This document shows, in pieces, positions 26,598-57,259 of a stretch of 64,000 bases of DNA. Position 1 is the stretch's first letter. Every line of letters begins with the position of its first letter. Below the pieces are notes generated by a model. The model worked only from the letters and a program-made list of their open reading frames with translations. It made no database searches and was not told the DNA's origin. This stretch comes from Dysidea avara (lineage: Eukaryota; Porifera; Demospongiae; Dictyoceratida; Dysideidae). The position numbers and the translations under genes were made by a program. The DNA is taken from positions 2,730,437-2,794,436 of the forward strand of contig NC_089281.1 in assembly GCF_963678975.1 (NCBI RefSeq). Direction: 5' to 3'.

Positions 26598-29500
26598 ATG
26601 AGATCTTGGATTCTCATATGTGCCTACTGTAGTTTACTTACATGTGCGTCGAAAGAACAGTGTAACTCTGAGGTGAGAGATATGAGATAAGAACTTTTAC
26701 TGTAGGGCGCGAAATGATCTCGCTGGCCCAGAGCCTATGGCTGGCCCTGGGCAGCAGTATGTACTTCTGTATGTACTCTGACGTGGAAGAACGGCTATGC
26801 CGAACGTTATGAGTTTAAGCAAAAAATCAATCAAAACAGCAGCAATGGGGGCCAGACCGCTTTTCTCTTTTTTTGTCATTAGTCACCTATTCCTCTAGGG
26901 ACCTACAAGAAGGCTTCAATAAACCTGTGGAGCAGGGAAACAGAACATGAACCTGAAAATTATGCTGAATGCAGAAAAAATCCCAGACCAGCTTGCAGGT
27001 CATGTGTGGTCTTTCTTTTGTCGTAGGGTAGCAGAATTTCCCAATGAAAAATACATTAGACCAGGTTTTTCATAGGCTACACCTTCTAGTGTCACATAGC
27101 CAGACCACTACAAAAAGAAAAGGTATTGGTCTGGCTATATGCCTCGCTGGCTGCTTACCTGTATGTCTCTCCTGCGTCATATACTGTACTTGTGTGTGTG
27201 GGTGGTGTTATGTATGCTATTGTCTTTTATCTTCTATATTCTTGTATGCTTAGTTAGTTAGTTGTTGTTTTTGTATCACTCCAACAAGGAGGAATAGCAT
27301 TGTATCAATTGTTGTGTGAGTATAAAATAATAAATCAAATATACTGAAGAGTAAATAGCTAGTGCCCTGAAAGCATTCATAATCTATGATTACGTACATG
27401 TAAATTGTACTGTGGTCAGTTGGTATATGACTGATGAAACAAAGACGTGTTTTTGCCTCTGACATGTTATCTCATGTATATATACTGTAGGACTGCTCCA
27501 GTGAGTCCCAGGCTAAGGGCTGTCACTGGTCATGTAATGATTACCGTGGTGTAGACTACTACATCACAACTGGTACACATGACGTCTCACTACCCAGTCC
27601 ACGTGGTGCAGTGCTGAGGGTGGGGTTGTGTACTGACATCTCATGTGGATCATCACGAAGTAGAGGATGTATAATAGTCCCTGGTGTGGAGCCTGTTAGT
27701 ACTGGTAAGGGAGTCATTGTGATCTTGTGATGTCTTATAGCAGACTGACTACAGAGGGGCCTATTAATATGGCAGCTAAGACAAGAACACTTGTAATTAT
27801 TAAAGGCTGCAGACCATATTATATATTGACTGACCTATGTAGCTAGAAAATGAGGTCATCTTGATAACTGGGATACTTTTGGTTGGTTGCAGGTTCCATT
27901 GTAACTTTTAATGAGTTAGGAAAGGGTGTGGTTTTGATACATTTGAATTTCCAATAAATTCATGCCCCCGAACAAGTGTCAAATTTCTTAGCCTTTTTGA
28001 GTGATATTAAATAGTTTATTACTAACTAGGCCATGAGCTTTAAGAAGTGGCCCAACTCGATAACGAAATAGAATGGCCTTACCAAACTATTTCAAACTGG
28101 CAGTGTAAATCATTGATTGTTGTAAAGAAAAAAAGTGTTAGCAAGTTTCATAAACTTGACAATAAGCTCAAGTAAATCCCATTCCCTCAGCTTGAGCACT
28201 ACTGAAATGATTTGATATATATGGAGTGGATTTATAATGAGTGTAAAATTGTAAGGTGGTAAGGAGAACGGTATGCTGGCCAGTTCTAGTATAGCTGGTT
28301 GGATCACAAGACTCCTGCTTCTGATAATAACGAGTCAGCATCGAAACCTTGTCGGGTCACATTTTGTCAGGGTCATCAGGGTCTGACCCGCTTTAAAAAT
28401 TATCCCCAGATCTGACCCGGATTGGATCACGTGTGAAGCAAATTAGTTTGACGATACGGAAGTGTTTAACGTGTCATAGTCAAGTTCTGGTGCAGCCCAG
28501 GTTCTTTAGTGAGCCACACCCGCTTATCCGGGCGACTGTCTGCAACCTTACGTGCAGCTACGCCCATTTATTGATGTCTGCAGGTATACATGAATCCATG
28601 CTTATGCTTGCAGGCTTATGTGGAGCCACGCCCACTAATCAATTGCTGTTGTACGAGATATGGTCTAGTCTTGCATCAGGCTAGCTTCTTTTGTGAGCCA
28701 TGCCCACTTTTATATCGGGAATGTGTCGTACCGTTTGTAATTACCATGTGTTAGCCATGTGCAAAGCCACACCCACTTGCAGGAAGTGTATCTTGCTATC
28801 TGCAAACTTATGTGGAACCATGCCCACTGACTAGCATCATTAATAGACCTTACCGCTTAGTTTTCATATAGCTACCCTTGTGCTTAATGCGCTAGTCTAG
28901 CACTCAAAACGTAGCCTTTGGCGCATGCCTCACTTTAATTAATCCGGGTCTGACCCAGAATGCTTCCGGGTTAGCAGTAGTGACCCGGTTTCAATGCTGT
29001 AATGAGTTACTATGGAGATAGAAGTGTAGCTCATAGAAGTGTGGAGCAAACATTGTAGCTTCACATATTTAGCTGGAGGAGGTTGGGCTACCACTTAATG
29101 TGATGTCATACACGAACTACATATACAATAGTCAACCACAATGGATTCATACCTGGACCTAAGGCTAATGTCTAGCTTTATTTACAGGAATTTTTAAAGT
29201 ACTGTAGACAATTATTGTGTGTTAAATTCTGTGCTATGACTCTGGGATTTAACATAGTTACCCTGACTTGTTTATTAACCACATTTGGTAACTAGTTACA
29301 TTTGTATTTACTGTTCCTACAGGCCAGAGGGTAGTTTATCAACCACTAGAACAACATATCCCATCAGCTGGACTACAGGTGGTGTATGAAGATGGTGTAG
29401 TGTGTGAAGTGACAAAGAAGCCTCGTAAAACAATCATTAACCTTCCTTGTGATCCTGATCATGATGTACCGGCTACTCCTTCCAGAGCTTATGAGGGAGA

Positions 29501-32500
29501 CAAGCAAACTATCTGTAACTATTATGTAGAGTTTTCACCCAGTAAACTATTCTGTCCTAATATGGTAAGAGGATTAGTAGCTGATACCAGCCCTGTAATA
29601 ACTGCTGGTAAGTTGTGTATGGTGTCTAAGAAAGGCCTACTATACTATGTAATATACCTACTATACTATGTAATATACACGTACATAAGATCACCATCTA
29701 GATAGCCCCCCATAAATGGATAATACAAAGTGACCTGCTTACGGTAGTTTAGTTAACCATCTCTTTAATATGGTCAAAATTTTAAAACAATTTGAACAAT
29801 TTGCTCTGAATCTTCTGATACACACATATGTACGTATGTATGCATACCTAAATACTATTTACGTGAAAATCAAAAATTTTGTTGAAGTGTATGTGTGATG
29901 TGTGTGTAGAGTTTATATGAGGCTCAGATAGTAATTCTTAGCACATGCATCAACACGATCATTTATGGTTTAACATTTGGTATTGTGTATTGTTCATACG
30001 TAGTATCTGGTTGTGAGGACTCCTCACCCAAAAGGACCACCACAAGATGTCACCCCAACAGTGGTACACAGCTTACCATCTATGGTGTTCATTTCTCTTC
30101 ATTGCTATCACCAACAACAGGAGACAGTACCACAGGACACCACAACATTCTCTCTGATTCCTTTGCAGTGTTTATTGGTGACAATAAGTGTCATGATTTA
30201 AAGTATGCCAACGATTTTACACTTGTGTGCTTGTTACCCCCCATGGGTGGGGAAGCACTGGATGTGACACTGAAGGAGGGTAGTGGTAACAAGGCAGTAT
30301 TAACAGGAGCTGTGTCATACAGACAGCTGGTGAACTATCGTCAAATGTTTGACCAGTTTGTATATCATGGGGTTGGTGGGATGAGACAACAAATTGAGGA
30401 ATTGTACAGGAGAGCATTTGCATCTCGTGGTTAGTAGTTGTATTAGAATACATTTTTTAAGTTAAGAAAAGGAGCCATACAAAAGAATCCCATGAGGCCA
30501 TAGACTGGAAAGGGAGAAGACACAAACATTTTGTAATGATTTATGAGAGTTAACCGCAGTGTATGTTAGTGGCTGTGAATTGTATGCTCACAATGGTTAC
30601 AAAATAATAGTTTAGTAGGGTAAATGATTGTTTTTCAACATGGGTAATTGTAAAATGGCATTCTTGCTATGGGCATTAAATAGAAACTATGAGCAAGCAA
30701 TTTCTAACATGCCTATAAGTACCACGAAAACTAACTCTAGCTTCTAGTTACTGTGTGACAGTTGGAAATGCCAGCACAATCTGCTATAAAAGATTATGTT
30801 ACTTTGCATGTGTCCCGATTGGTTCCGTTCCATTCTGTCCAGCCTTTATAACTACCAGTCCTAAATTAAATTTCACGATGAAGTACTGTACAACAACTGC
30901 AGTGTATTTATTTTGAAGCAGTTGTTGAAGTATGTGTGTGTATGTAGTCTTGTAGCCTTCCACACAAACAATTGCCTATGTAGAATGTGTACAACTTTAC
31001 TACGTGAAACCTTTGTAGGCAAATGATTAAAGAAATATGTAATGAAATATGTACATGTTTCAGTCCACATGTGTGGATGTGCACGTATATTACCATAGGA
31101 GGGCAGGTGATTGTGTAATCTGTTTTGTCACCGTGTGTCACTGTAGACATGACAGAAAAAGTGTTACGTCAAGTTGGGGTGGGTCACGTGAAGGGCGTCC
31201 TGTTCCATGGTCCCCCTGGTAATGGCAAAACACTGTTAGCTCGTACCATCGGGAAGATCCTAGGATCATCACAGGTATAGCTGTAGTAAGTAAGAGTAAA
31301 TAACACTTTGTTGTTTACAGTTACTGAGGCTAAACGTCACTTGTACTTGTGCCCTTTTAGGTAAAGATGTTGAATGGTCCTGAGATTATCAGCAAGTTTC
31401 TTGGAGAATCAGAGAGAAATCTGAGGTGCGAATGTGTAGTATAATATTAGTGATACAGGTTTTGCTATTACTGCTATATCATTGTCTGTGTTGTTGTAGG
31501 GGTCATTTTGAAGCAGCCAGGAAGGCTTGGGAGGAATATGGTGACCAGAGTGAAATGTTTGTTATCATCATTGATGAAATTGATGCTATTTGTAAACCAC
31601 GAGGTAACTCACCTACACTGTTACACACCATACAAGCACACCGTAAGCTTAAGAGCATTCAAAGACCATCCTATGCTTTCCCTCACCTTTAAACGTAAAC
31701 AAGACAAATATTTGAAGGTCTGACTGCATCATACAATATGGTAGTACTGTTTCATGGAGGTTTGGGCTTTTTTACCCAGAAACCAGCTTCACATTTCCTT
31801 CATGACAGTTTGGCAGTATTGGGTAGGCATGAGCAAGACCAAAACTGTCTTCAGACCTTCCAACAAGTTTCTGCGAATAGCTGAATTTCTACTAACTGAT
31901 CCAGCTGAGTATAACGTGACAATGGGTAAGGCTACAGGCTTGATTTCTTTACTGTTCAGCGTCGCACATGCCTTTTCACCAACCGTAGTACATACAATGC
32001 ATGCATCATGGATTCCCCTTTGTCCTCCTTTGTGTCCCAGTTCTTTTCGCTGACAACACAAGGTGTTGATTCACGATATAGCTTCCCTGTGGCTGTGTTG
32101 ACCAGCTATCATGCTAAATGCCCTTATTTTCTGTAGCGAGTGGATTGAATTGCAGAGACACTTATTGTACTGTTCTTTGTTTGTAATGCTATGTAATGGG
32201 TGGAGCATAGCTGAAAATAAAGCGTAATGGCCACTTCAGTCTTCAGTAATTGATTGTTGGGATGCCGATTCAGATACAAATTTAATTTTATGTCATGTGT
32301 AGTGTCATTCTGCGGCATGTGTGGGTTTAGTAGTCATAATTATGTTTTTAAAAAGTAAACAAACAAGTAGAAGGAAAAATTAGGAATTAAGTTGCATCAG
32401 GGGATTTATAAAAAGTAGTGAATCAAGAGAGGTTGTTTATACTTGCAGATATACTTAATCCCTAGTTCAGTCTTGGTTATAGACTGAAGTATAGAAATTA

Positions 32501-35500
32501 AATGTCTATTGGTATATATACTCTGCAGGTATAGTCAACTTCTCTTGTTTTAATACTTTTCATGTTTTACTACTGTTTTCCCTTTGATCCCTAATCCAAC
32601 TTAAAATTTTTCCTTTTACTTGTTAAGGTGGTGACCAGAGTAGGTTGGACACGCTTTAAGCACCACTATAACAAATTACTCAAAATACCTTTTGTTGAGG
32701 AGGTTAATACGTCGTGATCTCAGAACAACTCACTGGATCGTCTCGTGTTTTGTTAATGAAATACGTATGTGAAGGCTGGTGAAGTAGTGTACACCAAACC
32801 GCAACTTATTAATTTCACCCGGACTTCAAGCACTGATTACAAAACAAAGTACATTACCTTGAAGTTTACATGAAAGATGATCTGAATATCTAACGATCCC
32901 CACTGTTTTTCAGTTTTGTATTGCGACTATTGAGGATCATGTGAAATACCTAATCAAAGAATGCAATTAAGGTACAGCTCACATGAACGTGTCCAACCTC
33001 CTGGGTGGCAGCTACCCGATTAGCCCAAGTTAATCTTAAGAACCCAATAAGTAACCACAACAGGTTTGTGGCTTCTATGAATAAATTAATGGCAAAAAGA
33101 AACATAACTAGCCTTTTGAAAGGATTGTTGCAGTGAACATAAAGTGTTAATAACCAAGTAGAAGTACCTGTGGTAAGCCACGAATTCATGCGTATCTTGA
33201 TTCACCATGATGCTTGTACGTCTTCATTAATTACCGGGTGCCTATTGCTACCAACTTTATTGCGCATGATAGCCATGATAGCCATGATAGCCCTATCAGA
33301 ACAGTAACTCTCCAAAACAACACACTAGGCGATCAGAAGTTTGACTGATGGCGGGTTAAAAATGTCTCCACAGCTCTATGGATTAATTTTTCAAAACGTA
33401 GTCATGGATCAGAAATATGACTCAGCAAAGTGCACAGATCGCTTTTATACCATGTTCTAATGAAAGATCGTTGAAACAAATTCATACAGCTGGTAAGAAT
33501 GATGAAATTAGGCCCTAGGAAAAGTTTCAAAGACCTAACTAGCATTATTGGCGAGTTATTTCAGGAGAACGGTATTGAATAAAACACCCCGGTATCTCGG
33601 GATAGAATGGGAGCTGGTCCTTAGGTTTTCTTTATAACTTCACTAACTATATAGCTATTTTGCTATTTTGCAAGAGTACAATGAAGTAAGCAACAATTTC
33701 CTTCCCTGTGAAAAGTATGGTGTAGTATTTTTAATTATGTGCGTGGGTTATCGGGTAGCCTCCATCTTAATATAAATTAACTTGGCATTCCATGGATAGT
33801 AGATAGTATAGTATTTGTACATGAACTGACTTTTATCCATCAGAATTTCTATCCTGCAGGTATATATTCACTACACTATGGGTATATACATATTCATACA
33901 TGTCATTCATTGCACATGGACTTGTACCATGACCCAATACTAAACTTAAGCAAATACTCTAATAGAACAATCATCTTTAACTGCAGGTAAATCTGACCAA
34001 TCAGCAGCTGCAGCTGCTTACGACAGTCTTGTCAACCAACTACTGACACTAATGGATGGATTAAAGTTAGTGATATTGTATTGTACATATGTGATTGGAT
34101 TTGCAAAAAGGTACCTTTTTCACACAAAATTTTTGAACTTTTGAATCTACATAACTTTTTCATCATGGCATATAATTACCTGAAATTTTCCATGAGTGTA
34201 GCTACAGTATCTGGCTGCATTTTGATGCTAAGAGCAAGTTAATCAGTACAAGGAGTCAAGTGTTATATCATTTTGTTTGTTGGTATGTAAAATGTGTGGA
34301 AAAGGTACCTTTTCACACATATGTACTACACGTAGTTAACACTAGAGCTGCAGTATATGTAAAATGTGGATATCTAAAACATACATGTTGTCGCTGAATT
34401 ACTTTTTGGTAATGCTTTACAATAATGTTTGGATTTTACTAGCTGAATAATTTAATAGCTACCCATTGGATAGTAAACAAATGGTAAATTTACATGCTGT
34501 CCTGATATCAAACTTTTAACGAATATTTGATTCAAAGATTTAGTCAACTTTATTTATGAACTTTGTTTTTTCTGCAGTGAGATGAACAATATTTTGGTGA
34601 TTGGAATGACCAATCGGATTGAATTATTGGATCCCGCTCTTTTAAGACCGGGAAGGTACACAATAGTTATAGCTATATCATTATAATTTGTTTTGTTGGT
34701 TAGGTTTGAGGTTCAAATAGAAGTTACACTTCCCACAGAAAAAGAAAGGTTGATTGCTTTATTACTACACTACTACAGTATTTCACTTGTATTTATAAAT
34801 ATGAATTAGGCTTGAAATATTTGAGGTGCACACTCGGTCAGTTCAAGAGAGTGGTGTTCTTGATCAAGATGTTAGTCTTGAGGAACTAGCTGCTAATACA
34901 TCACATTTCAGTGGAGCAGAAATTGCTGGTATAGTGAGAGAAGCTGTCTCTTTCTCATTGGAGAGAACAGTAAGTCATTTTCTGTAAAGGATAGTGTTTA
35001 TGTATGTGTGTTACGTTACTACCACAAGGTTATTTACAAATTCAGTTGTGTTGCCTGCCTAGCAATGAGATATAATACAAACTAGGGCTGGGCGGTATTG
35101 AAATTTTGCTATCACGATATATCATGGAAAAAATATCACGATATTACGATATTTTTGACAGGTGCTCTATACTATCAAACTACACCTGCCTACACAAGTG
35201 ACGTAATGCAGCAGCATGAATGGATGTACAAAATAACAACACATGACATGTACCATTCATTGCATTAAGATACAGACATCAGGTAGATTTCAATTTTGCT
35301 ACAATTAAGTGTAGTGGCTTATATACCCAAGTGCATGACATAAATTCAGGAGTTATATAGATATCCATGCATGACTTAAAAGTGCTGATTGTGGCAATAG
35401 AAGCTCATACTCAGTTTTGCATGACCACATTTAATATAATTCTACAATGTGTAAAAATCCACATAATAAGCCCCTAATCACAATGACTAATCTGTTAGTA

Positions 35501-38500
35501 ACTACTTTCATATTTGCATGAATGCTCTATTAGAGTGTACTTGACTGCGTATTGGTGACTGCTCTATTAGAGTATCTCGATATATAGTATCCCCTCTGCA
35601 TGGATCTACAATCTTGATCTTCCCTGGACAGAATCCTTCCCTGGCCTGGAGCTACAACAGCAGCAGTGTGACGTCCCACCATGTTTACAGTAGTCAATAC
35701 GGATCAACACTGTGGTATTCTTGATATCGTGATAATATCATTTCCAAAAAATTTTTGGCGATACTGGTATTGTTTCATCAGGATATCGCGGTTTTACGAT
35801 ATAACCGAGATATTGCCCACCCCTAATACAAACTATTGTTGATTGTTGATCATGTTCGTATGTACGGTGCAGTATGTTACCTACGCAATTACATACACAC
35901 AACCACTTGTACATAGTATGTACGTATTTACCTTGTACTACATAAGTCATAAATGTGTTTTTTTTTATTGCAGACACAGAATCCAGATAACAGCCTTCGC
36001 TTGACATTAAATGATTTTCACCGAGCAATGAACTCTATTGTTCCAGCATACACTAGTTCGCAGGTATGTACTTCATGTTTGTGTAATGATCCCTAATTGA
36101 ACTTTAAAATTCCTAATTTTTCCTTATACTTGTTTGTTTACTCTTTTTTGTAACATTAATTATTATGACTGGTGAACCCGCACATACTGCATCAAAAGAA
36201 AGGATGGCACCATAATTAATGTTTTCGTCTGTACACGCACCCCAGCTATCAATGGTGAAGTGACCATTCCGCTTCGCTTTCAGCTATGTTCACAGCACTA
36301 CAAACGAAGAACAGTGGGAGAAGCATCTCTGCAATCAATCCAGTCACCACGAAGAATACAGACGATTTGTGCACCCCTATTATCTATTACTGACTCTAAG
36401 TGAGGGCCATTACGCTTCACTTTCAGCCTGTCTTACAGCATTACAAACAAAGAACAGTGAGTGCCTCTGCAATCAATCCAGTCACCACAGAAATTATGGA
36501 TGATTCCTGTTTACAAATGTACGGAAGCCATGTATTGCACTACCACGAATTGACACCATGGGTTGTCAGCATAAAGAAAAAGACACTTTGGTATACAAAA
36601 GGCATGTCTCGGGATGAAGCGATGTTGAACAGTGAAAAAATCAAGCCTGTAGTCTTAGCCGTTATCGAGTTATGCTTGCCTGAAGGCATCAGTAGGTTAG
36701 TCAGTAGAAAATTCCATTAAAGGGAGGATTGCATGAAATTTTTGATGTCATTTTTTTTACATCAATATATAGTGTATGTAATGTGTTTAATGTTTGTAAT
36801 ATTTGTTTTTGAAAATAACTAGTGAAAAAGCGAGTAGAAAAACAGGATTCCAAGCCCGTTTATGGCTTCTTCCGTTTTGCGGTCCTGTTACTCATGACGT
36901 CACAAGTGTAAGCGTATTATAGTCACGGGGCTTCCTGCATAGTGTTGTCTCGTGTGTAGTAAGACTTTAAAGACTGTTTTCATACATCCTCTGCCAAGCT
37001 TTGTAATGATATGGCCTTCAGAATCCTCGATGACAATTTGAGCGATACAGCAAGCATCACTAGCTCAGATACCAGTACAATCACCGAGTCATCCAAAGCC
37101 AGTGAGCAAGCTAGCGCAGACATGGAGGAAGAGATGGAACACCTAGTTGACCCATATCAATTCGAACCAGTAGCCAGCGACAGCAATGAAAATTCGTACT
37201 CGGTAGATAGCGAAGAAGATTCCAGCGAAAGGCTACTGAATAAAGACTGGTAAGTCAGAAGCTACTAGCTGGGCTATAAAGCTAGCTACATACTATAGTA
37301 TAGATATTAATGTAGATAGCTACTCTATTATGCTACAGCTAATTATTCATGTATTGTATGTATTCATACAAGGTGCAGATGTGATAATTGTGAAATTATG
37401 CCAACTGCAGTTGAGCTGTTGTCAAATTTATCAGACAGTAGATAAAATAACTGAGACAGGTGCACTGTGTATCACTCAACATGAAGGCTTTGAAGCTGTC
37501 TGTTTGAATGTGTGGGTCCTGCAAACTGCTTGTTTTCAGTATTATCAGCAGTATGGTGATTTTGTAGAAAAATCAGCCAATGAGTAAGTTAAAATAATTT
37601 GTATTTGTTATAATTATCTTGCAGGTAATATTGATTTATAACATATCGACAACTGACAAGATGGTGTTGGGGTTGGCTTGGAAGATCAATGAGAGTAGTG
37701 TTGCCTGCCTGTACTATAACGAAGATACGAAATAAGTTTCCTTCGTCAACACATACAGGATTTAAGTATCCTACAACTGTACCTTCATAATGTTATCTAA
37801 TTACATAATATTATGATAACTATAATAAAATACACTTAAATCATGTTTTAAATCTACTTGAATGACCTTAGCTTTATCTGGCCTTTCATATGCAGATGCA
37901 AGAGCCTCTGGAGTCTTTGGTGCATTGGAACGGTCCTGTTTTTCTCCAGCTGTACAGCATTTTGCTGTTTCTGCCATCAGCTCCTCAATGTAACCTGCCA
38001 AAATGTGCTTGCATACGTGACTGAATACACATGTATCTATTCCTTACCATATGTTGGCTTTACCAAAACTTTTTTTTACAATGTACTCACCCTTCTTATA
38101 CTTAGGGAATACAATGTCATAGCATTCATTACCTTCCTTGGTAACAGCTTGAGGTCTGTTAGCGTTTTCATTGAAATGAAGTGCAGCTAGTTTTAACCTG
38201 CATGTGAGGAAATTTAATTAGTTAAGTAAAAACAATGCAAGTCATCATATACTTCAACAGGTTCGCAAAAGGTATTCTGTTACTGGACAACTATATGTTG
38301 TCATGTCCTGTGTATCTCACAGTGTATCCTACATATCTTAAATCAGATACCACGACCACATAGTTTTAGGTATAACAGAATCCCTTTGATGAAACATTTT
38401 ATGCCTACCTGCATTGCATTCCTAAATATGAAAATGCTACAGACTTGGGTGCAAAATGTATGACATTGTGGAAGGATTCTACAGACGATGTTTGGTATTT

Positions 38501-41500
38501 CGGGGACAGCTTGACCATGTCATTACAAAGATAGGTGTTTGTCAATAGTGCACCCAATTTCTCGCTTGCTTTGGTATCTACACCAATATTAAACAGCATG
38601 CATATAGCTAAGCAATTATAAGAAAAAAATGCTTTAAACTCACGTCTCTTAAACCACTTCTTTCTATCACACCGTCTTAATCTACCATGATCACATTTTC
38701 GAAAATGTCTGGTTCCATAACCACTTTGCCCTAACGACATCTTCATTGCTATCTGCTGTTGAGGAGACACACCAGTACAGGTGGTTAATGATGCTCTTCT
38801 GCCATTCTCCTACTAGCTCACAGCCTTTTTGCTTAGCTAGTTTCTCCAACTTCTTACGCAAACCTGCATGTTTGTTCAGACATGTTTTAATCCTGCACAT
38901 CAGTGAATTACCTTTGGCTACATGCCACACATCATAACGGTGTTTTACAGATGGATACGTTTCACGAAGCCATTTGTTTATTTGCTTATGACGATCTGTG
39001 ATCAGTGTATCCACCTGTAAACCATTATCTCCTAACTATTGCATGCAGTGCAAAAGGCCTTCTTTTTCCATGTGATAGCTCCCTGTAACCTCATTGCTCT
39101 GTATGGGCAGAGTATAGTACCATAATCAGTATTTGCACATGTAGTATACCTGAACTAATTTGATGTCTATCACCTTATTCTTAGTTAACTCAACCATTGA
39201 ATATGACCCAAATTTGGCCAGGACTGTCAGCCCTTCCATCACCTCCAATAATCAGGTGGCTATTGCTCTCCTTCAATTCCCTTAGTAGCCTTTGCTGATG
39301 TTTCTCCCAAATAAAGTCTATAATTGGCTGTAGGTAGTTTCGTTGATGATGAAAAAAGGTTGATGTAGTGATAGTTGGACAATTGAATACTGAAAATAGT
39401 CTCAGTGCCTTTGCAGGTTGTGCACCAGTGTAGAGAATGGCAGCAGAAGTCAAGATGTTGTCTACTGGTGTTCTACCAAAATACGGTTCACTCCTCCACA
39501 CAAATACATGATTGCATTCATGACAGATTTGTCGAATGCAAAGTAGTGATCCATGCACCTTTCTGACTAAACTTGTGGAAGAGCTCCTACAAGCAGTACA
39601 GAGTGAAAAAAGCAGCAATAGAGCTGAATCAAACAACAAGTAGCATTGGTACTTGGCTTGTGAACCAGACTGATCAGAGCAATCTTCAGATCTAGAGTGT
39701 ATAATATTGGTGTTAAGTTTTATTGCTAAATTTGTCAATTGTGGAATACTTACAACATCATACTTTCCTCAGATGGAGCATATGTATCATCAATTCCCTT
39801 TTCAGTAGTGGTAATGTCTGTCTCGTAGAAATCAGCAGCATCCTTAATAGGTGTGGAGGTTAATGGTAGGTGTGATGATGACATATGCATTGGGCTCAAC
39901 AAGTCACATTGTACACCAACATCGTGAACTTCAGGTTTAGCTTGAGTTTCTAGTTGCATGCATAGAATACAGTACGTTAATTTAAAATAGCTATGGGATA
40001 TAGCTATCGGTACCTCATATAGCACTTACCTATAGATATCATTTCAGACATAACCTGTGTGGATGAATTAGTATATTTTGGCTGAATCTCAGCCGCTATG
40101 GTGTTAATGCTACTGCTTCCCAACTGCAAATTACTGGATTCTGGCTGGGTGCCTGATGATACAGTCATCTGCTGTGAATGGCTAAGTCCTGACTGGGTGC
40201 CTGATTCTCCTGTCTGTGGATCACTAATTGGTTCTAACTGGATGCTTGAAGATGCAAGTAGTGCCTCCTCGACAATCTGTATGTTTGATAGTATACCTTA
40301 AGGCATCATTATTGCAATATGCATGGACTACATAGCTACGTGTATAGCTATAGTTATGTCTATAGCTTACTTGCACGGTGTATGACTACGCTTACTCGAG
40401 ATCTCTCTCTCTTTTCAAAGGCTTGCCTTTTCTTTTGTGGCTCATTCCATTCATGGTGTGACGAAATGGCTCGTTTTAGTGACGAGGAAAAACCTTCTAA
40501 TGACTGGGATGAAGCAGAGCTAGAGGGAGTCTCTGGCCTTTAAAAATCGTTGGAATGGCTCCTTCTACTAGTCTACGTCATTTCTGTATTCCAAAACCTG
40601 CTGCTAATTTAGTATCTTTTTCGAAGCAGTCTTTTGTGAAATGCTCGCTGCATAAAACAGATGTGTGAGATGGACCTGTCCAGTTAGCTCTAGTACTTTG
40701 TACTTTTTCCGTCCAAATTGTTCACAAAGTTGGATCCTTAGGGAATAGAAAGCAGCTAATATTTTCTCCAGGTACGTTAGAACAGTCATAAGCCACGCAT
40801 CACTTCGACATTATCTTCACAAACGCTAATATACAACTAACTTACATGGTATTCCAATATCATAGCTTTATACGCTTACACCTGTGACGTCACGAGTAAC
40901 AGGACCGCAAAACGGAAGAAGCCATAAATGGGCTTGAAATCCTGTTTTTCTACTTGCTTTTTCACCAGTAAATTATTTTATTTTCAGAAACAAATCTTAC
41001 AAACATTAAACACATTACATACACTATATATTGATGTAAAAAAAATGACATCAAAAATTTCATGCAATCCTCCCTTTAAATGAAAATTTTTAAAAATTTT
41101 GTAACAATTTATTGGAAGTATTTAGGGTTGTCCTGAAGGCATTTTTGGGCTTGGGCATACCTATCCAATACTACCAAGGCGCCAGGATGGTATTGTGAAG
41201 CTGATTTTAGGGTGATTTTTCTGGCCAGAAAAATCCCAACCTCTAATATACAGTACTACCGTACTGTATGATAACATACAAACCTTAATATTTCTCTACC
41301 TATCTATGTGGCCCAATATCCATCTTTCAATTTTCCTATTTGTAGGTACATATGAATTGTCAAAGTTGAAAAAATGTCTTTCTCTCAAATCCAGTCACAT
41401 GTGTATTGTGGAAACACAATGGTTGTAATCCCTGTCTGGGGTTGCAACCTTCATTACTATCTATGTGAAACACTGTATCCCCCTACACAGTCACACATTT

Positions 41501-44500
41501 TGAGAAAGTATCTACCAGAGGGATATCTGCCATGTGGCTCAGCCCATAGTGAAGTGATCAATACTGCACTAGAACTAGTTCAGTCATTACAACACAACTC
41601 ATTCACTAGACTGAAGTCACTTCTGTTATATGGACCAAGAGGTGAGTGGGTGGATGACTGAACTTTAAGTAGAAATCTTTCTGGCATCTTTAATCATCTT
41701 TTACCAAAGTCACTCCTGTGTAGAAGCCAATGGTATTATTGGCTTTTGTAGTTTTAGTCAATCCTTTAAACTGTTACAACTTTTTATGTGACTTTGTGCT
41801 GAAGTAGCATTTCCAACAAGATTTTTTGTTTGTAAGTGGTTGCTTTATTAGAGTGGTTGTCCAACTTCTTTTGAGTATTGCTATTCAAAGCACATTCAAC
41901 ATGCAGGGACATACAAGTGTGGTACTGCTAAACTGACTATCATTGTAGGGACTGGCAAGACTAGTTTAGCAGTTCACATCTCCACACTGATGATGTTTGA
42001 CTACATCAGATTGATCACAGCTAGTGAACTACTGGCCATACCAGATACACACAAAATTGACAAGATACATCAAGCCTTCACTGAGGCCTACAGGTATGGT
42101 GATATGTACCTCTATAGTACTTTGGTGACTGCAAAATTTGTGAACTTTTAATGTGAATGGTAGGTCACTTAACATACATACAGTAAGACTTACTAATGTG
42201 TTTACATTTATACAAGTGACCTTATTACACAGTGACCTGGTTTTGTGGTTAGGTGTTTCATTAACATAATTGTTGGTTTACTGTAAGTTAATGATTTGTC
42301 ATCTAGACAACTGAAATATGTGGCACAAAGTATTGGTGGTGTGTTGTTCGTTGTGAGAAATTATATTGTGTGGAGTAGATGTGTAGGAGATATAATCTAA
42401 GATGATATACAAGTGTATACTAGTTCCACATACAGGTCAGATGGGGTCAGCATTATCATACTGGATGATATTGATCAGTTGGTGAAACATCTTTACTTTG
42501 GAGAGGGGCGTGCCTCTGTATCACATGATCTGATGCATGCTGTGAGCACACTGATTACAGCCACACCCCCAGTAGGTAAATTCCCTTGTTCTGTGATTGT
42601 GTGACTGTATTTTATGCTGTGCACAGGAGGTACAAGGGTACGTATTGTAAATATGTATCATACAGTGTAGTACTGAATGGTAGGGATCACAGTTTGGGCT
42701 TTCTTGCCAAAAAATGTCAATCAAACACCAGCCTCACTGTTCCTTCATAATAGCTTGACAGTATTGATTAGTCAAAACCAAGCCCAAATATGCTTCAACT
42801 ATGGGCTTGATTTCTTCGCTGTTTTATGTTGTTTTGGCCCAAGATGTGTCTTTTCGCCAACGACAGCAGCTTCAGTACATGCATCATGGACTTTTGTGCA
42901 CATTTGTGTTCCTTTTCTTTCTTCGCTACTGTGTAGGTACCCTATTCTGTAGCTATGAGTGCGGTGTCTAGCTAGTACCTCTTACAGCAGCGTGCAAATA
43001 TTTTGTGGTATCTAAATATGGAAAGTGAAAATTAACAACACCTTGGTATGGTTTCATTATATGAAGAAGATGATGACCAGTATGGAGACACTTGTCGGAA
43101 CCCCAAAAGGCATGTGCCACTGGTGAGTTTGTTATTGTGGTGCAATATGCTGGTTGTCATTTAGCCTCTAGCTTTGCGACTGTGATCAGTCAGTCAGGCA
43201 AGCAGGCCATCGGCCAGGCAGGCAGAAGTTTGGGTTTTTAAATAAATTTTGATACTAGTATAGCTGCAGGTGCCGATGACCTCTCTTGTCATGATCCCTG
43301 CTCAAATGTAAAATTTATTTTTCCTTGTTTACTGTTTGTAATAATGTAGTTCATTACTAGTTACGTAACTCATTGAACCAGTGTATACTGCAACGGAAAC
43401 AATGGTACCAGGCACAATATGAAAATTAATTATGCAATTAAATGTATAATTTTGCTTTGTTTTCCACGTTCCACCATTTGTACAACATTACTAACAAACA
43501 ACAGTATGAGAAGCACTTCTGCAGTAAATCTAGTCATTATGAAAATACGGATGATTCTCGTGATAGCACTGAAGTCATGACACGTCACTATGAATCAACA
43601 CCTATGCTATAATGGGAAAAAAGGAGGACAAAGGTAAGTCCATGATGCATGCATTGTAGCTGCTGTGGTAGGCACATCTTTGATTGAAGCGAGAAAAAAT
43701 CAAGCCCTTTGCCTTAACCATAGTAGATTTATGTAACCGTATAGTAGCTGATTTATGCTTGACAGTTAGTTATTCAAACAGTCGGTAGAAAATTCAGTTC
43801 AATGAAAAAATCATAGAAATTTAGTTGGGGTTACTCTGAAGGTATTTTTGAGCTTGATTATGGTAAACCAGTAGTGCCAAGGTGTGGAGAAAAGGTTTTT
43901 TGGATGATAATTTTGGAAAGGAAAGCCAAAATTTCCATGATCCCTACCTTCCATACTGCCTCTGCTAATTCCATATTCATACACTCTCCAGCTGTGTGGC
44001 ACTGATATATATATCTACAGAAAGAGAACTACTTTATGGCATGATAAGGTCCATGGTTGGACACTTCAACTTTTGCTGTCAATCTATCAAGTTGCAAAGT
44101 ATAACAGCAAATCAACTTGATTGCTTTAAGTGACCCATGTATTTATAATGTACAGAACTCAGAATTGAGCACACAGTACATGTAAACATTTTCTAAACAC
44201 AAAAAGGGACTGCAGTAACATAATATAACTATTCCCAAATTTGTGTATCAAATATAAAAGCCAATGTTAAACAAGATTCATATCAGTCTAATGTAAAGTC
44301 TAATGTAAACTACATAGCATCATATGACTAGCAGTGGGAGTAGTGATATCCCATTATAGACAGAGGGCTCTGTGAGTTGACTATCAGGTAGCCTTTTCTC
44401 TGTAGTTTCTAGTTATAGGACTGTTCCTTTACTGTAGGTATTTGAGGTGTATTGATGGAAGGGAGGGAGGGGGGCAGAGGAGACCCGAGAAGGGGCAACA

Positions 44501-47500
44501 AGTTTTAGATAAGGACTAAGTATATTCTGCTAGGAGACTTCTCCTGTAAGGGAAAAGATGACAAGGAGTGCATCACATCCTATGGACAAGGGAGCATCTA
44601 ACTCTGCAAACAATGAAATTCAATCAAACATGGCTACCGTGTACTACCATATAATGGGAAATTTACGAACAGGAGGAAATCTCATGGATCGGGAACTCCG
44701 GTATCCTCCAGGCTGCTTCATTGCTGCTGATGTATTGAGCATTCTGATACTCAGAGATCTCGTCCACCTGGTCTGAACATAGTGCAAAAGTTGCCTGATC
44801 ACAGCCCTTGTGTATGTATTTCAGTACATACTTGATGGAACTGATGGATATGCATAATTTAACATTGCAGTGGCAGTTTACTTAAGGCTCGCAACAAAAA
44901 CTTATTGTAAGGCACTATCCATCTGTTGTCAATTTCTTCAGTTACCTGAGAGCTTCTCACATTAATGGTGATGGTACTCACCTGTCCACCATCTTCAAGG
45001 CTTATCCTCCTGTACAATGGGTAGCTATCAGTGCCTAGTTGGGTCTCAGATATCAATGATTTGGGGTACTCCTTACTGCACTGGCCAGCAAGGAGACAAT
45101 GGATTGATGCTCCCACAGGGTCCATGTACCATTTTGGACATCACAATCTGGTGCAGTTCAGGGTCAAGTGCTGGATCAGGTGTTTCAGCACAAACAACAT
45201 CTATGTGATCCTTGTGTTCTGGAATCAACCACACCAAGAGGTGAGCATGTGGTAAACCACACTTTTGCCATTCTACTGAGTAAAGTGAAGCCTGTAGTTT
45301 TCCAAAAATCATTTCTGCTTTTAACATCTCTAGCATTTTCTTAAGTTTGAGCCTAAAAACTCATGCTACTAATTCTGGATGATCCTGGGGCTTTAGACCT
45401 GGCAACAGATTGTTTTTAATTTCTGGCCAGTTGGGATTGCATGTCATTGTAATAAACAAATCAGGGTGGCCATATTTCCTAACATAAGTCATGGCATCCT
45501 GTTGACGTTCATGCATGTAACTTGGCCCACCTGTGAATGTTGATGGAAGGATAACCCAACAGCCTACATTGCTAGGGTCCCTGTCCCCATTAACAATTGC
45601 ATCTCGGAGATCCTGATAGCAGTCAGCACGCTTTTGCTCACGCCTAAGAAATTGCAATTGTTCTGTTTCAATTTTGCAGTATGCATCTACCAAGAACTGT
45701 TGGAACAGTTGCTATGCCCTAAGTAACACAGATACATTTTGCTTTACCATAATGTGGTAGCAGTAATACACCAGGGCTGTCAATTTTTTATTGTTAGCTA
45801 GTTTAAGATTGATGTGCCATCCATCAGTACCATGAGAGAAAATCAGTGGGTACTGCAATGGATCATATCCTCTGTGTAGCTCTGAAATATGATGCAAACC
45901 ACCATCCCTGTAGTGTAACACTATGTCCCTGTTGTGTGCATTTCCATTAGGCATCAACACACCCACCTCATCACACATTGGACTATTGTACCTCCTGGCA
46001 TGCTCACCTGTAGGCCTCTTTGTTTCATTGATACTGTGGTTTTCCAGGTTCTTGCAATTCAAAACATCATGTGCTAATATTGTGCACTCACGCATGCACG
46101 GATTTTTAAATTTACGCAGTATACCGGTAAACCATGACATCATCAATAAGGCATAGGTATAGCTGTGAACCTTCTCGTGCTAGTACTTATGGTGATGATA
46201 CTAGATGGCAGATTGTGTGGCAAGAGGAAGTTATGAAATTATCTGATAAAGAAGTGGCCAGTAACTTATGAATTGATCCTACCACTGTGCACAGAATTTA
46301 CATGCTCTTTAGAACAAAAAGAGATGTAAACAAGAACCACCATATCCAGCTGAGAATGCATTTAGAAAGCTGGTACAGTTTTTTCTAGCTCAATTACTGC
46401 TGACAAAGCCAGGAATATATGTTAGAGAAATCCAACTGGAGTTGGTAGGTGTAGTTGTAAGCTTGAGTTGTCTTTGTAAATACTTGCACAAGACTGGCTT
46501 CACCCACCAATGGATGTCCAAATATGCAATTCAAAGAGATGAGGATCTAAGAAAGCAGCATGTTGATGATGTGTCTCTCTATACACTCCTGAAATGATGA
46601 TATTTTTAGGAACTGATAGAAGAGATACTTCAAGAAGAAAAGGATACAGTATGAGAGGAAAACCAGCAAGGAACCAGCAGCTTTTATTCAGAGGTGAACA
46701 TGTTTCAGTCATTTCATTCCTTTCCATTGAAGGAATTTTAGGCTGCAGTATAGTGTGGGATAGTGTGAATGGTAAAATATTTTATGATATAACTCTAAAA
46801 CATTTGGTAAATATTTTGATGGAGTAAACAAAAACAGTGTAGTCATCATGGATAACTGTTTTATTCACCACACAAAAGAAGTAGTTGATGGAATTGAAGA
46901 CACTGGTGCTATCTTGTACTTTCTGCCCTCTTACTCACCAGACTACAATCCCATTGAGAATACATTTTCTAAGGTAAAAACTGTAATGAAAAGTATGGAA
47001 TTAGAGATGCAAGCTTTGGAAGATATTGATACAATAATCCATGCAGCATTCTCATCAGTATCTTCAAATGATTGTAAAGAATGGATTAAAGCATCTGATA
47101 TTTACAGCATGTAAACACATACACACAATAACAATGTTCAGGGGTTAATCTAGGAGGGGTGGGAGGGGGCACAGGCCCCTCCTGGGTTAACTATTGTCCC
47201 CCCCCTAGGTTTATACCTAAAGCCTTGAGAAATGGAAAGGTTTAATTGATCCCAAAGTTGTATAATTGAATGGTCAATATTCAGTGGCATCACAATAAAA
47301 TTTTACCAAAATTGAGTATATTTACACCTAAATTTTCAAAACTTTCCTGGGGTAGCATGCCCCCAGACTCACCTAGAATCCGAAGCGGCTTACTTTGCCC
47401 CCTCTAGCTTAATATTCTGGGTTGAACCCTGATGTTGTAAACACAAATTACAGTGTATACATAGTCACAATAACAACACTTGTCACCACTACTCTCGCTT

Positions 47501-50500: not shown

Positions 50501-53011
50501 GTGCAAATTAGGGAATAATTGTACTCAAACTGCTAAAATTTCACCCTGAGCAATTTTGACAGCTACGTGTACAATTATACTCAAATGTGTGTGATTACCT
50601 GTATGAAGTGCACATTTTTAGTTGTGTTGCTATACAGATTTTTGAGGGATGTACTTTTCACAGATTTCATGGTAACAGCAATGTTTCATCCTCGAAAATT
50701 ATTATAATACCTTAAACTTAACACAAAACTGATATTCAAACTCCTTTTCCCTTGTGGCTTCAAAGTGATTGTAGCTACCATCACATAGTAGTAGGGATCT
50801 GCTAAAATGTATGTTGCTGCCCATAAAACCATCATAAACACAATCTATCTGTCGATCTTACACAATGAAAAGCACTTTTTAAGAACTACTAACCCTAGGT
50901 ATAGCCTTACAGAAGAATGAATATTCAGTCGTGGCTGCATATGACTGAAGTTGGAATTAAATCTCCAATAGTAGTTGATGACCTCCCTTGTTTTATTCCT
51001 TGTTATTCCTACTCGAAAGTATGATTAATAATTTTCTTATACTTGTAACATGGGCAATGAAGGCTTTGCCTGATATGTACGCCAGACAACCCAAGGGTTG
51101 AGGGCATACATACGATCCATAGCTGGCTAATAGCCTGCGCCAGGTGATCAATCACTCAAGCAGATACAAGTACAACCACTGGATGTATTGTATATGCATG
51201 CCTGAAACATTTAAATGTGGGTCAGCAGCTGGTATATGCATTCTGGCAATGTTTGGCTATGATTGGCTATGATGAATAAACAAATTATAGAGAATTTTGG
51301 TTACGCAAGTGTAATGTTTTAATCAGTGCTGTTGAATTGTAAAGGCTTAGATGAGTAAGCATGCTTGTAGAGTAGTTATTTCTTGTAGAGTGGTAATTTC
51401 GTGCTATCAGTAGTGTGGATGTGGTCTGTATTCGGAAACGTGTGAAAACACTTGCTATAGCACTACAAAATGCTTTCCGTCTGAGTGGTTCATGGCCAAA
51501 TCAAAGTCATGCATACTATTCACGTGAGTACTAATCAGCGCTTCTAATACTGTTCTTGTAACGCTTTGTGACCAGCTGAACACAGCTGAAAGCAAAGTGT
51601 AATGGCCACTTCACTTTCGAGTCAGTAATTAATAGCTGGGGTGCATGTTCAGACGAAAACATTAACTCTGGCACCATCGTTTCTTTTTATACGGTATGTG
51701 TGGGTTCACCAGTCATAATAATGTTACAAAAAAAGTAAACAAACAAATATAAGGAAAACTTAGGAATTTTAAGTTTGATTAAGGATCATAGAGGGAGGTT
51801 GCCTATACCTGCAGATATACTAGTGAACATTTAATCTCTAATTCAGTCTGGGTATAGGCATTAAGGCCAAAATTGATTTCTGCAATCAATCCGGTCACCA
51901 CAGAAAATACTGACGATTTCCGTAGAGAAGCCATCTATTTCACTATCACGAATTGACACCTTGAGCTATCAGCAAAAAGAAATGGGACACAAAAGAGGAC
52001 AAAGGTAAGCCCATGATGTGTGCATTGTATGTACTGTGATATACCAAAAGGCATATCTCAGGACGAAGTGATATCGAACAGTGACAAAATCAAGCCCATA
52101 GCCTTATCCGTTCTTGAGTTATGCTTGTTTGAGGTATCAGGCAGGCAGGTGGGCAGGCAGGATAATTTATTTTAAATTTCATAACAATTTTATTGGAAGC
52201 ATTTAGGGTCATACTGAAGGCACTTTTGGGCTTGGTTACCTAACCAATACTGTCAAGGCACCAGGATGGTATATGTGAAGCTGGTTTTTGGGTGATATTT
52301 TTGACCAGAAAACCCCAAATCTCCATGATCCCTAATATACAGTACAATATAATTGCTGCCCAGTTGTAGCCCGGGCTACATTCAGATGTGATACAGGTAA
52401 GTTGCGAACTGGGCTATGTTGTGAATGTAACCTGGGAAGTTCCCTTGATCTGAGGTATGAAAGTGTTAAGTGTTACATCTTAATGTAATTATGTACTGCT
52501 TATGATGAGCACACTATACTGTAAACTGTACAACATGCTTCCAGCGAAATACTAGAGTGATGCAACTTATTCCTTCACTACATTCAGGTACTAGTCTACT
52601 AATAGTAGCTACACTAACAGTGAGGGATGTGTTGGGAAACAGTCCAGTATTACAAGGATTGTCTGAACTATTTGCTATACATAAACTGGTTCCCTATCTC
52701 AACACTGAAGGGGCACAGGCGTTCATTAATGCCAAGAACATGCGCCAGTGAGTAACTGTGTGTGTTGTTGTTTATTGTTGAATGTATTCATGTGCTCCAG
52801 GCCTGGAGGAGGATTGGCACTAATTCCCAGTGGAGTAGAGATATCAATGAGAGGTCTACTATATGTACTGGAGTGTGTGTGCACCAGATCATCACTACAC
52901 TCGTGTACTACACTGGACCATATTGAGACCAGCCAACAAACTTTATTGGAGTGTGTTAATCTTCACCGTCATGTTCCTTCTAATGTCACAGTGAATTTCT
53001 TGAATACATAA
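26598..53011 (+). CDS. Secreted-type MRH-IPT-NSF fusion: lectin-like N-terminus on a double AAA+ ATPase
   Basis: Seventeen exons, all phases agreeing, give about 883 residues: 26598-26672, 27491-27704, 29323-29607, 30004-30429, 31147-31274, 31361-31425, 31500-31603, 33987-34065, 34578-34655, 34704-34748, 34810-34969, 35974-36063, 41395-41641, 41949-42093, 42436-42575, 52588-52747, 52801-53011. Signal peptide about 1-18 ([14 protein letters not shown]). About 20-175 is cysteine-rich and MRH-like ([26 protein letters not shown]). About 190-300 is IPT/TIG ([18 protein letters not shown]). Then comes the NSF lead-in GVGGM...YRRAFASR. D1 has Walker A GPPGNGKT 355-362, Walker B D423/E424 and LLRPGR 480-485. 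D2 has GPRGTGKT 663-670 and LDDID 723-727. NSF normally disassembles SNAREs in the cytosol; its N-domain is absent here. No membrane helix is visible. Exon 13's start is the least certain. Confidence 0.85.
28336..28999. mobile_element. hAT-like MITE in the fusion gene's intron 2
   Basis: Ends CAGCATCGAAACC and GGTTTCAATGCTG are inverted repeats. Flanks TAACGAGT and TAATGAGT are an 8-bp target duplication with one change. Inside are GGGTCTGACCC blocks and a run of GCCACACCCACTT-like units at irregular 60-100-bp spacing. No transposase. Confidence 0.75.
31740..32630 (+). repeat. Foldback-ended repeat family, copy A
   Basis: Begins CATGGAGGTTTGGGCTTTTT. It runs through GGCTTGATTTCTTTACTG and AATGGCCACTTCAGTC, and ends in a hairpin centred near 32490. 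There the bases after AGTAGAAGGAAAAATTAGGA are mirrored by CCTAATCC and AAATTTTTCCTTTTACTTG. Copies lie at about 36.1, 42.7, 51.6, 54.8 and 59.7 kb. It is in intron 7 of the fusion gene. Confidence 0.65.
32631..33980. other. Rest of fusion-gene intron 7
   Basis: No coding signature. A short tandem tract of GATAGCCAT units lies near 33270-33295. An ACTCTAATAGAACAATCATC copy of the dispersed motif lies near 33956. Confidence 0.5.
35083..35825. mobile_element. hAT-like MITE with exact 8-bp target duplication
   Basis: Starts TAGGGCTGGGCGGTATTG and ends ATTGCCCACCCCTA. Both flanks are ATACAAAC. Inside, ATATCACGATAT-type blocks near each end extend the inverted repeat. It holds two copies of the dispersed TGCTCTATTAGAGT motif. 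It is in intron 11 of the fusion gene. Confidence 0.85.
36085..36716 (-). repeat. Foldback-ended repeat family, copy B, left part
   Basis: From TGATCCCTAATTGAAC through CAATCAATCCAGTCACCAC, which occurs twice, indicating an internal duplication. It continues to GTCAGTAGAAAATTCCA. It is interrupted by the Kolobok-like element and resumes at 41080. Confidence 0.65.
37011..37790 (+). pseudogene. P2X7 ballast-like zinc-domain protein gene inside transposon (broken)
   Basis: Exon 1 (37011-37248) starts [14 protein letters not shown], followed by an acidic, serine-rich region. After an intron (acceptor near 37372) it reads [16 protein letters not shown] frameshift follows, then [30 protein letters not shown] and YYQQYG. 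A last part from about 37640 reads [31 protein letters not shown] and TGFKYP. The order and the cysteines match the cytosolic zinc-binding ballast of P2X7 receptors and its many free-standing relatives. No channel part is present. One frameshift and stop codons before ITYRQ make it a pseudogene. It may have been a second transposon protein, for example a DNA-binding partner, but its role is unknown. Confidence 0.75.
37815..40811 (-). pseudogene. THAP-domain Kolobok-type transposase (broken)
   Basis: From 40811 downward a THAP zinc finger reads [25 protein letters not shown] and [11 protein letters not shown], with two in-frame TGA stops. Further exons carry [11 protein letters not shown], then at 39738-39190 [29 protein letters not shown] and [10 protein letters not shown], a candidate first catalytic aspartate region. 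Next come [15 protein letters not shown] and [13 protein letters not shown] at 39014-38691, [10 protein letters not shown] and [16 protein letters not shown] at 38770-38405, and a final LAALHFNEN with FPKYKKGEY before 37815. Frames shift several times. These blocks match a THAP transposase family common in sponges, cnidarians and fish. Confidence 0.8.
41080..41322 (-). repeat. Foldback-ended repeat family, copy B, right part
   Basis: Continues the repeat cut by the Kolobok-like element: CAATTTATTGGAAG, AAGGCATTTTTGGGCTTGG, CAAGGCGCCAGGATGGTAT and GGCCAGAAAAATCC. The join restores the order seen uninterrupted at 52180-52340. Confidence 0.65.
42680..43960. repeat. Foldback-ended repeat family, copy C (two pieces)
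   Basis: From TAGGGATCACAGTTTGGGC through ATGGGCTTGATTTCTTCGCT and CATGCATCATGGACTTTTG (to about 42960). A second piece with CAGTAAATCTAGTCATTATG and GGTATTTTTGAGCTTG ends near 43945 at AATTTCCATGATCCC. An imperfect GGCAGGCA tract lies at 43194-43230 between them. It is in intron 15 of the fusion gene. Confidence 0.55.
46160..47114 (+). pseudogene. Tc1/mariner-type transposase relic nested in the Helitron
   Basis: DDE-superfamily transposase. Frames read [17 protein letters not shown], then a stop, and [12 protein letters not shown], an N-terminal helix-turn-helix. Next is [21 protein letters not shown], where a short deletion removes the first catalytic aspartate. [12 protein letters not shown] gives the second aspartate, and [16 protein letters not shown] gives the last acidic position (E). 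Stops and frameshifts prevent activity. Terminal inverted repeats were not resolved. Confidence 0.8.
47139..47431. mobile_element. MITE related to the 18473 element, 5-bp target duplication ATGTT
   Basis: Starts CAGGGGTTAATCTAGGAGG and ends TCTGGGTTGAACCCTG, flanked by ATGTT on each side. It contains TAGCATGCCCCCAGACT, also found near the right end of the 18473 element, so the two are one family. It sits between the Tc1-like relic and Helitron sequence. Confidence 0.65.
49311..51559. other. Part of fusion-gene intron 15 without recognised genes
   Basis: No exon recognised. Near 49450-49530 the minus strand has AAGTTCAAATCC, a possible pol III B box, but no tRNA fold. The rest is AT-rich with no clear element boundary. 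Confidence 0.45.
51560..52345 (-). repeat. Foldback-ended repeat family, copy D
   Basis: Contains AATGGCCACTTCACTTTCG, CTGCAATCAATCCGGTCACC, GCAGGCAGGTGGGCAGGCAG and CAATTTTATTGGAAGC, and ends CTCCATGATCCCTAATATAC. It lies 240 bp before exon 16 of the fusion gene. Confidence 0.65.
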
Positions 53012-55320: not shown

Positions 55321-55507
55321 TACTACCATACTGTATAATAATTGGAATTGATCTGAAACTTTGATATAGTAACTATAATAACTTCTTCAAAGGTTCTGGA
55401 CAAACATCAAAAGTAGTCTCAAAGTTAAAAGTAACTTTAGAGGCATAATTACTAAGTTAAAAGTGACTTCAAAGTGTCACAAAGCACACAATAGTTGTAA
55501 CATGTAT

Positions 55508-55592
55508 ATTTGTGGTCCACCTGATATGTCTACCCTCAGCCCTTAGGCCATAAAACCTGAGGGCTGAGGGTAGACATATCAGGCAGACCACC
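55508..55592. repeat. Hairpin with ~31-bp arms in the duplicated block
   Basis: GTGGTCCACCTGATATGTCT with CACCCTCAGCCC-like continuation is mirrored by GGGCTGAGGGTAGACATATC and GGCAGACCAC, around an 18-base loop. A degraded second copy is at about 60712-60800, so the hairpin predates the segmental duplication. Confidence 0.7.
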
Positions 55593-55734
55593 CATACCCA
55601 TTTTACAACCATAAAATGTACATATGGTACACACATGCAAAAACATACCATATGTAATGTACATATCAGGAAACATTAGGGATCTCATTATATTTATAGC
55701 AAGATTTCTGTTTTATGGTTGCTCAGGAGAATAT

Positions 55735-55885
55735 TGTATGACACATGTTTCAAAGCTGTTTATGATGAACACATTATACTGCAAACTGTACACTAGTCTC
55801 TTCCACTATACATCAGTGATGTTGCTATAAAGTCAGTTCTTTATAATAGAGCAGTCCAAGCAGTATCTACAAGGGTTGTCTACAA
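55735..55885 (+). pseudogene. Degraded copy of sequence flanking fusion-gene exon 16
   Basis: TATACTGCAAACTGTACA and nearby bases match 52520-52540 just before exon 16. The exon itself is mostly lost, leaving AGCAGTCCAAGCAGTATC and ACAAGGGTTGTCT. It is the first of three such remnants. Confidence 0.45.
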
Positions 55886-56261
55886 CAGTGGGCTGTGGTC
55901 AAGATTAGTTATTAGACTTTTACTCAGGGACCAACCCTCAATAGTAGCCATACTTGAGTGGTGCCACAATTGATTTGGAAATAAGAGCTTAAACATTGTT
56001 TACTGATCAATTTTAAATAGTCACTGCATCGATATTTTGAACAACCATATATAAAATTAACTTTTTATTTTGATGTCATTTAATGTGATTTCATGACCTC
56101 AGAATCTGTTATTGCCATACAAGGTAGACTAGAGGAATCATCCGCCTATGTAGTTAACAACATAACTCATCATCAATGCACACATTTATGTACATATCAA
56201 TTGTTACACACAGACAACGCAGACTATTCTGTGCTCAAGCAGCAGCAGTGGTTGATATACT

Positions 56262-57200: not shown

Positions 57201-57259
57201 TCTGTCATCAAGGTCAGACTAAGTACTGTGAACTGTTTCTGTATGTCTTTGGATCATGT

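Follow-up and report, generated by a model that had tools for sequence, protein, structure and literature searches.

An MRH-like and IPT front end joined in frame to a probable NSF-type motor paralogue in the sponge Dysidea avara

The gene model considered in this study joins extracellular-type domains to an ATPase of the NSF type, and the question it raises is one of topology: are extracellular-type domains at work in the cytosol, or is an NSF motor at work in the lumen? The model spans positions 26598-53011 on the forward strand of the window, that is, the whole 64-kb stretch of DNA that was analysed (positions are 1-based within it; G+C content 37.7%). Its exons were found by reading the sequence and were joined by script, with borders picked by eye and NSF as the guide, so that the compatibility of their phases is partly a product of construction. 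The sequence-only reading had proposed 17 exons giving one protein in compatible phases. The rebuilt model bears this out, with all 16 introns (48 to 10,012 bases long) bounded by GT and AG, all phases compatible and a single frame of 851 codons, every one of them open. The splice sites are intact, some of the donors being weak (e.g. gttgat and gtgcga). The protein length of about 883 residues given in that reading has been revised to 851 aa, the longer product being obtained when exon 13 is started at an in-frame alternative acceptor, 41395, and not at 41491. The 32 extra residues have a coding score of -4.4 bits, match no Pfam family and lack a counterpart in the NSF alignment, which is why the acceptor at 41491 was preferred. 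As a statement about the DNA sequence, the fusion is very probably real.

The two halves of the protein meet inside exon 4 (30004-30429), which encodes an IPT/TIG domain and continues in frame into the end of the N-D1 linker and the D1 lead-in. One frame of this exon is free of stops over 142 codons, for which the chance is 9.7e-5 at the stop frequency of the window, and stops number 6 and 9 in the other two frames. Residues 205-288 form the TIG domain, which is followed by 25 residues and then, in the last 20 codons of the exon, by the lead-in GVGGM...YRRAFASR (residues 314-333), which aligns with Sec18 and NSF; the GIGG of the NSF N-D1 linker, as given in PMC3646813, is GVGG here. A degenerate DNA pattern for the lead-in occurred once in the window and in none of 100 shuffles. 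It had been stated earlier that the IPT domain runs without interruption into the NSF lead-in and that exon 5 continues to Walker A. Both statements stand, the first by virtue of a common exon and one stop-free frame and the second by the GPPGNGKT motif in exon 5 (31147-31274) of the same model.

An error of assembly that merged two genes is very improbable, for although the join is known from one assembly, it falls within a single open exon, keeps the frame, coincides with a domain boundary and is adjacent to the GxGG conserved in the N-D1 linker. The earlier assertion that two merged genes are not involved holds for the IPT-to-NSF join, given the common exon and frame, while a shorter product may still start within exon 4 or 5. 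Met codons are present close to the 3' end of exon 4 and where exon 5 begins, as would suit a locus with two products: an upstream promoter would give an MRH/IPT protein, a short D1-D2 protein would be made from a second promoter or a start codon inside exon 4 or 5, and the fusion would be rare or absent. Such an arrangement is unlikely, as a single open frame of one exon encodes both the IPT domain and the NSF lead-in.

The IPT/TIG assignment is firm at the level of sequence similarity, exon 4 scoring 28.5-29.5 bits for Pfam TIG against a curated cut-off of 20.9. Its two cysteines (254 and 267) are 13 apart, and two central cysteines are described for plexin IPT domains in PMC6374515. The IPT domain of the fusion resembles those of Plexin/Met-type proteins in this feature, but the rest of the protein does not: no Sema, PSI, GAP or kinase domain was present among the Pfam matches listed, and no membrane segment was found between IPT and D1, where the best 19-residue hydropathy is 0.24. 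A PSI-like domain considered at residues 22-40 had no Pfam match and was rejected. When the protein sequence of exon 4 was searched against the PDB, 10 weak matches (E of at least 0.1) were returned, with proteasome subunits at the top and no IPT protein; the exon 4 DNA had no match in phages, and an AlphaFold model of exon 4 alone (pLDDT 32.1) was unusable. Exons 3 and 4 are both phase 1-1 exons, which are typical of shuffled extracellular modules.

The second half of the protein is firmly identified from its sequence as NSF D1 and D2. Among the best 60 of 233 PDB matches to residues 312-851, Sec18 (339.8 bits) and NSF (331.6 bits) were at the top, and the best chain of another kind reached 289.3 bits. 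The Sec18 and NSF alignments cover D1 and D2 in a single stretch, from residue 314 to 759 or 757. With D2 alone, Sec18 (88.9 bits) and NSF (87.4 bits) were followed by Cdc48 at 43 bits (best 60 of 96 matches). p97/Cdc48, likewise a double-AAA ring unfoldase, matched significantly yet with clearly lower similarity, above all in D2. The PDB chain 9ox9, named as a vesicle-fusing ATPase, scored 268.4 bits and fell among the p97 group, which we take to be a matter of naming. The 25 NCBIfam families listed, of 47 matched, were ATPase-type models, all of them below their cut-offs.

The D1 domain is distributed over exons 5 to 12. Following Walker A in exon 5, the pore loop KFLGES is found in exon 6 (31361-31425) and Walker B (IIIDEIDAI) in exon 7 (31500-31603); exon 9 (34578-34655) encodes sensor 1 (VIGMTNR) and the arginine fingers (LLRPGR), exon 11 (34810-34969) the lid (AAA_lid_3, 35.8 bits) and exon 12 (35974-36063) the end of the domain, with exons 8 (33987-34065) and 10 (34704-34748) also belonging to D1. 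The residues at NSF positions K266, D328, E329, N374, R385 and R388 are kept, Y294 in the pore loop is replaced by F and the sensor-2 residue E442 by A (the roles of these residues in NSF are given in PMC6160233). The catalytic set of D1 is present, comprising Walker A, the acidic pair of Walker B, sensor 1 and both arginine fingers, together with an aromatic pore-loop residue. The D2 domain starts in exon 13 (41491-41641) and has its own Walker A (GPRGTGKT) in exon 14 (41949-42093), both Walker A motifs of the protein being retained, and a Walker B-like IIILDDID in exon 15 (42436-42575). It continues through exon 16 (52588-52747) into exon 17 (52801-53011), which carries the stop codon and lies beyond the aligned part of NSF; from its position and by comparison with the known NSF C-terminus, exon 17 is presumably the D2 C-terminus. 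By its parts, the protein should work like an NSF-type motor.

Most likely, judging from sequence divergence, the gene is a diverged NSF paralogue and not the housekeeping NSF. Over D1 and D2 the protein is 41.0% (178/434) identical to NSF and 40.6% (176/434) to Sec18, with only 28.8% identity to NSF in D2, whereas NSF and Sec18 are 60.0% (266/443) identical to each other; a housekeeping animal NSF would be expected to be at least as close to mammalian NSF as the yeast protein Sec18. The order of D1 and D2, the Walker motifs, sensor 1, the arginine fingers and the GxGG end of the linker are shared with NSF/Sec18. The differences lie in the pore and sensor-2 substitutions and in the front end, where MRH-like and IPT modules stand in place of a double-psi N-domain. 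The SNAP/SNARE-binding N-domain of NSF was not found, its best E values being 0.28 for the protein and 4.2 for the whole window, in agreement with what had been expected of the fusion. As this defining domain was sought and not found, the protein does not qualify functionally as a full NSF-family member.

A probable MRH-like domain, recognized from its sequence, precedes the IPT domain, with its first half in the cysteine-rich exon 2 (27491-27704) and its second half in exon 3 (29323-29607). Cysteines are concentrated at the front: residues 1-300 contain 18, the presumed signal peptide accounting for 3, whereas residues 301-851 contain 6. Pfam gave nothing before the TIG domain, in exon 2 or elsewhere, even at E 10, and a PDB sequence search of the front end returned no MRH protein. 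A home-made MRH profile, made from nine mannose-6-phosphate-receptor repeats, scored 19.6 bits with the exon 3 open reading frame (ORF) and 16.2 bits with the fusion, scores that were reached by none of 20,000 shuffles of exon 3 (best 10.4) and none of the 394 other ORFs of the window (best 8.1). With CD-MPR added to the profile, the corresponding values were 19.6 and 15.9 bits, and again none of 20,000 shuffles reached them (best 10.5). The profile is matched only in part, and the conditional E per domain is 0.0015 for the exon 3 ORF and 0.03 for the fusion. Profile comparison gave exons 2-3 a probability of 61% (31 columns), while the IPT part, used as the control, received 2%. The MRH lectin of the sequence-only reading is made probable by this profile, the shuffles and the cysteine spacing, but it lacks a Pfam match and is weaker than had been stated.

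The likeness to CD-MPR and CI-MPR concerns the cysteine spacing and the Arg and Tyr positions of the second half of the MRH domain. The four cysteines of this half are spaced 15-22-13 here and 13-22-12 in CD-MPR, and in both proteins an Arg lies 8 residues before the second and a Tyr 2 residues after the third of these cysteines (R131 and Y163 here). CD-MPR has two Glu residues, 8 and 7 before the third cysteine, the first of which, by the numbering we assume, binds the sugar; only the second is Glu here (E154). The acidic sugar-binding residue may therefore sit one position off, and Q98 is a mere candidate for the essential Gln, so that the placement of the essential Gln and Glu, unlike in MRH lectins, is uncertain. 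Among the MRH proteins, which in the ER include OS-9, XTP3-B and glucosidase II beta, the comparison covered CD-MPR and CI-MPR; the four mannose-binding residues (Gln, Arg, Glu and Tyr) of glucosidase II beta are named in PMC9266668. An AlphaFold model of exon 3 alone was poor (pLDDT 47.4). The Foldseek search made with it gave 113 matches at E <= 10, the best with E 1.1 and none at E <= 0.001, with no MRH protein among the best 50 of the 113, and is uninformative given the quality of the model.

Only one frame of exon 2 is free of stops, with a codon score of +7.5 bits compared with -5.4 and -4.3 in the others. This frame opens immediately behind a stop codon and contains no Met, and some upstream exon is therefore required. 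The candidate is exon 1 (26598-26672), the least certain of the exons, which provides a start codon and a stretch that resembles a signal peptide and is predicted from its hydrophobicity to be one. It holds the most hydrophobic 12- and 15-residue segments of the protein, while its 19-residue segment ranks only 27th. The best 19-residue hydropathy in the whole protein (1.51) is found in D2, and the sole segment preceding D1 among the top 25 of this length has a value of 1.26, at residue 263. The codon score of exon 1 is -0.4; another frame scores 1.7 but contains a stop. Read literally, the model would send the whole protein into the secretory pathway and place a lectin-guided AAA+ motor in the lumen. 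The C-terminus is FLNT and not a retention signal of the KDEL type, so a resident of the ER would need another anchor or would be secreted. There are two N-glycosylation sequons, one of them inside D1, compared with a mean of 5.1 in shuffles, 9.6% of which had as few.

The same observations bear on a cytosolic protein, in which exon 1 is not a signal peptide (or not the true first exon) and an NSF with a swapped N-domain drives the same motor with new partners. This would fit the want of a retention signal and of a membrane segment, the small number of sequons and the lack of codon support for exon 1. NSF and its relatives are cytosolic, and IPT domains are also found inside cells, in transcription factors. 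Nonetheless, the cysteine-rich MRH-like exons and the plexin-type cysteine pair of the IPT domain would be hard to fold in a reducing compartment, and the upstream start that exon 2 requires has a candidate that looks like a signal peptide. A cytosolic location is considered rather doubtful.

The best explanation, to which we assign a probability of about 0.42 for the mechanism as a whole, is that the gene encodes an NSF-family paralogue in which the N-domain has been swapped for MRH-like and IPT modules and which would act as a luminal motor. The putative signal peptide of exon 1 would take the protein into the ER, where its cysteine-rich front would fold. An NSF-like hexamer would then bear six MRH/IPT arms above the D1 pore, and these arms are predicted to bind glycoproteins, the MRH-like domain through mannose and the IPT domain through protein contact. 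Powered by ATP hydrolysis, D1 would thread the bound glycoproteins through the pore, with D2 keeping the ring together. The result would be a glycan-guided motor for unfolding or disassembly in the secretory lumen, with possible uses in the quality control of glycoproteins or the dismantling of adhesive complexes. In the ER, MRH lectins direct glycoproteins towards folding or degradation (PMC6331979, PMC6272264), and lectin arms that feed glycoproteins into an NSF ring may, by analogy, be envisaged.

According to PMC7140721, no AAA+ proteins other than torsins are known in the ER lumen and perinuclear space, and a luminal NSF would add a second type. Torsins would offer a precedent for an AAA+ protein of the ER lumen if the present protein is luminal. 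They differ from it in that torsins are described as having no arginine finger and a non-canonical Walker A (PMC7140721), whereas here Walker A is standard and both arginine fingers are present.

Parts of the 3' end of the gene have been copied further downstream on the same strand. A broken copy of exon 16 with its 5' flank lies at 60937-61203; its exon part (61041-61196) is 90.3% identical to exon 16, the 5' flanks are 80.9% identical, and with one stop and small indels it is considered a pseudo-exon. The differences between exon 16 and this copy are spread evenly over the codon positions (5, 5, 5), which gives no more than a weak hint of selection on exon 16. At 63824-64000, cut off by the end of the window, is a fragment that matches intron 16 together with the beginning of exon 17 and shows only faint similarity to exon 16; more copies may lie beyond 64000. 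Block duplication downstream of the gene, which includes the broken exon 16 copy, is seen between 60577-62358 and 55381-57309 and between 60937-61203 and 52489-52755, and related minus-strand ORFs within it (56265-57218 and 61669-62274) have no Pfam match but look fibrinogen-like by eye. A weak match to exon 17 at 16152-16241 (E 0.002 and 0.15) was taken as chance. The introns also contain transposons. The one in intron 12 (36705-41092) has inverted ends of about 220 bases that are 90.6% identical and a MULE-type transposase match on the minus strand (38694-39035) below the Pfam cut-off. Intron 15 holds pieces of Helitron_like_N together with a DDE_3 transposase, at 45076-45711 on the minus strand and 46570-47111 on the plus strand, the upstream piece of DDE_3 being below the cut-off.

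These copies and transposons show a mobile locus, which leaves room for a young or decaying chimera that arose by local duplication and has no settled function. The gene model itself is unbroken by them, with its open codons and intact splice sites, and the retention of the D1 catalytic residues would be unlikely in such a chimera given the divergence from NSF, all of which makes this origin quite improbable. Other genes, which mark the window as animal DNA, were recognized upstream in it: a TRAF-type ORF with zinc fingers and a MATH domain (5477-6913, plus strand), a 794-codon ORF (13690-16071, minus strand) with a hydrophobic start in which G6PD and 6-phosphogluconolactonase are fused, as in ER hexose-6-phosphate dehydrogenase, and an alpha/epsilon-sarcoglycan domain (16261-16593, plus strand), which probably extends downstream as part of an apparently multi-exon gene upstream of the NSF-type gene.

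To our knowledge, no MRH lectin carries an ATPase. A description of an MRH/IPT/NSF fusion was not found in the titles and opening parts of abstracts of the open-licence literature, a body that excludes most subscription journals, and the novelty of this domain order is provisional. Searches of viral, bacterial and archaeal contigs with the whole protein gave 6 pattern matches per collection, none of which was confirmed, a result that is uninformative on animals; the NSF lead-in pattern was not found in the same viral and bacterial/archaeal contigs, and Rfam gave no matches.

Beyond the reading preferred here, that of a luminal NSF-family paralogue, it is possible, if somewhat doubtful, that the protein represents an independent second AAA+ machine of the secretory lumen or cell exterior, a ring motor derived from NSF in which built-in mannose-type lectin and IPT modules would select the substrate and glycan recognition would lead directly to mechanical unfolding or disassembly. 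If this is true, there would be no need of an adaptor chain of lectin, ubiquitin ligase and p97, as in the known quality control of the ER. Few components of membrane traffic are as conserved as NSF, whose substrate is determined by its N-domain; an exchange of this domain in nature for IPT and lectin-like modules would make a rare case of a ring ATPase re-aimed.
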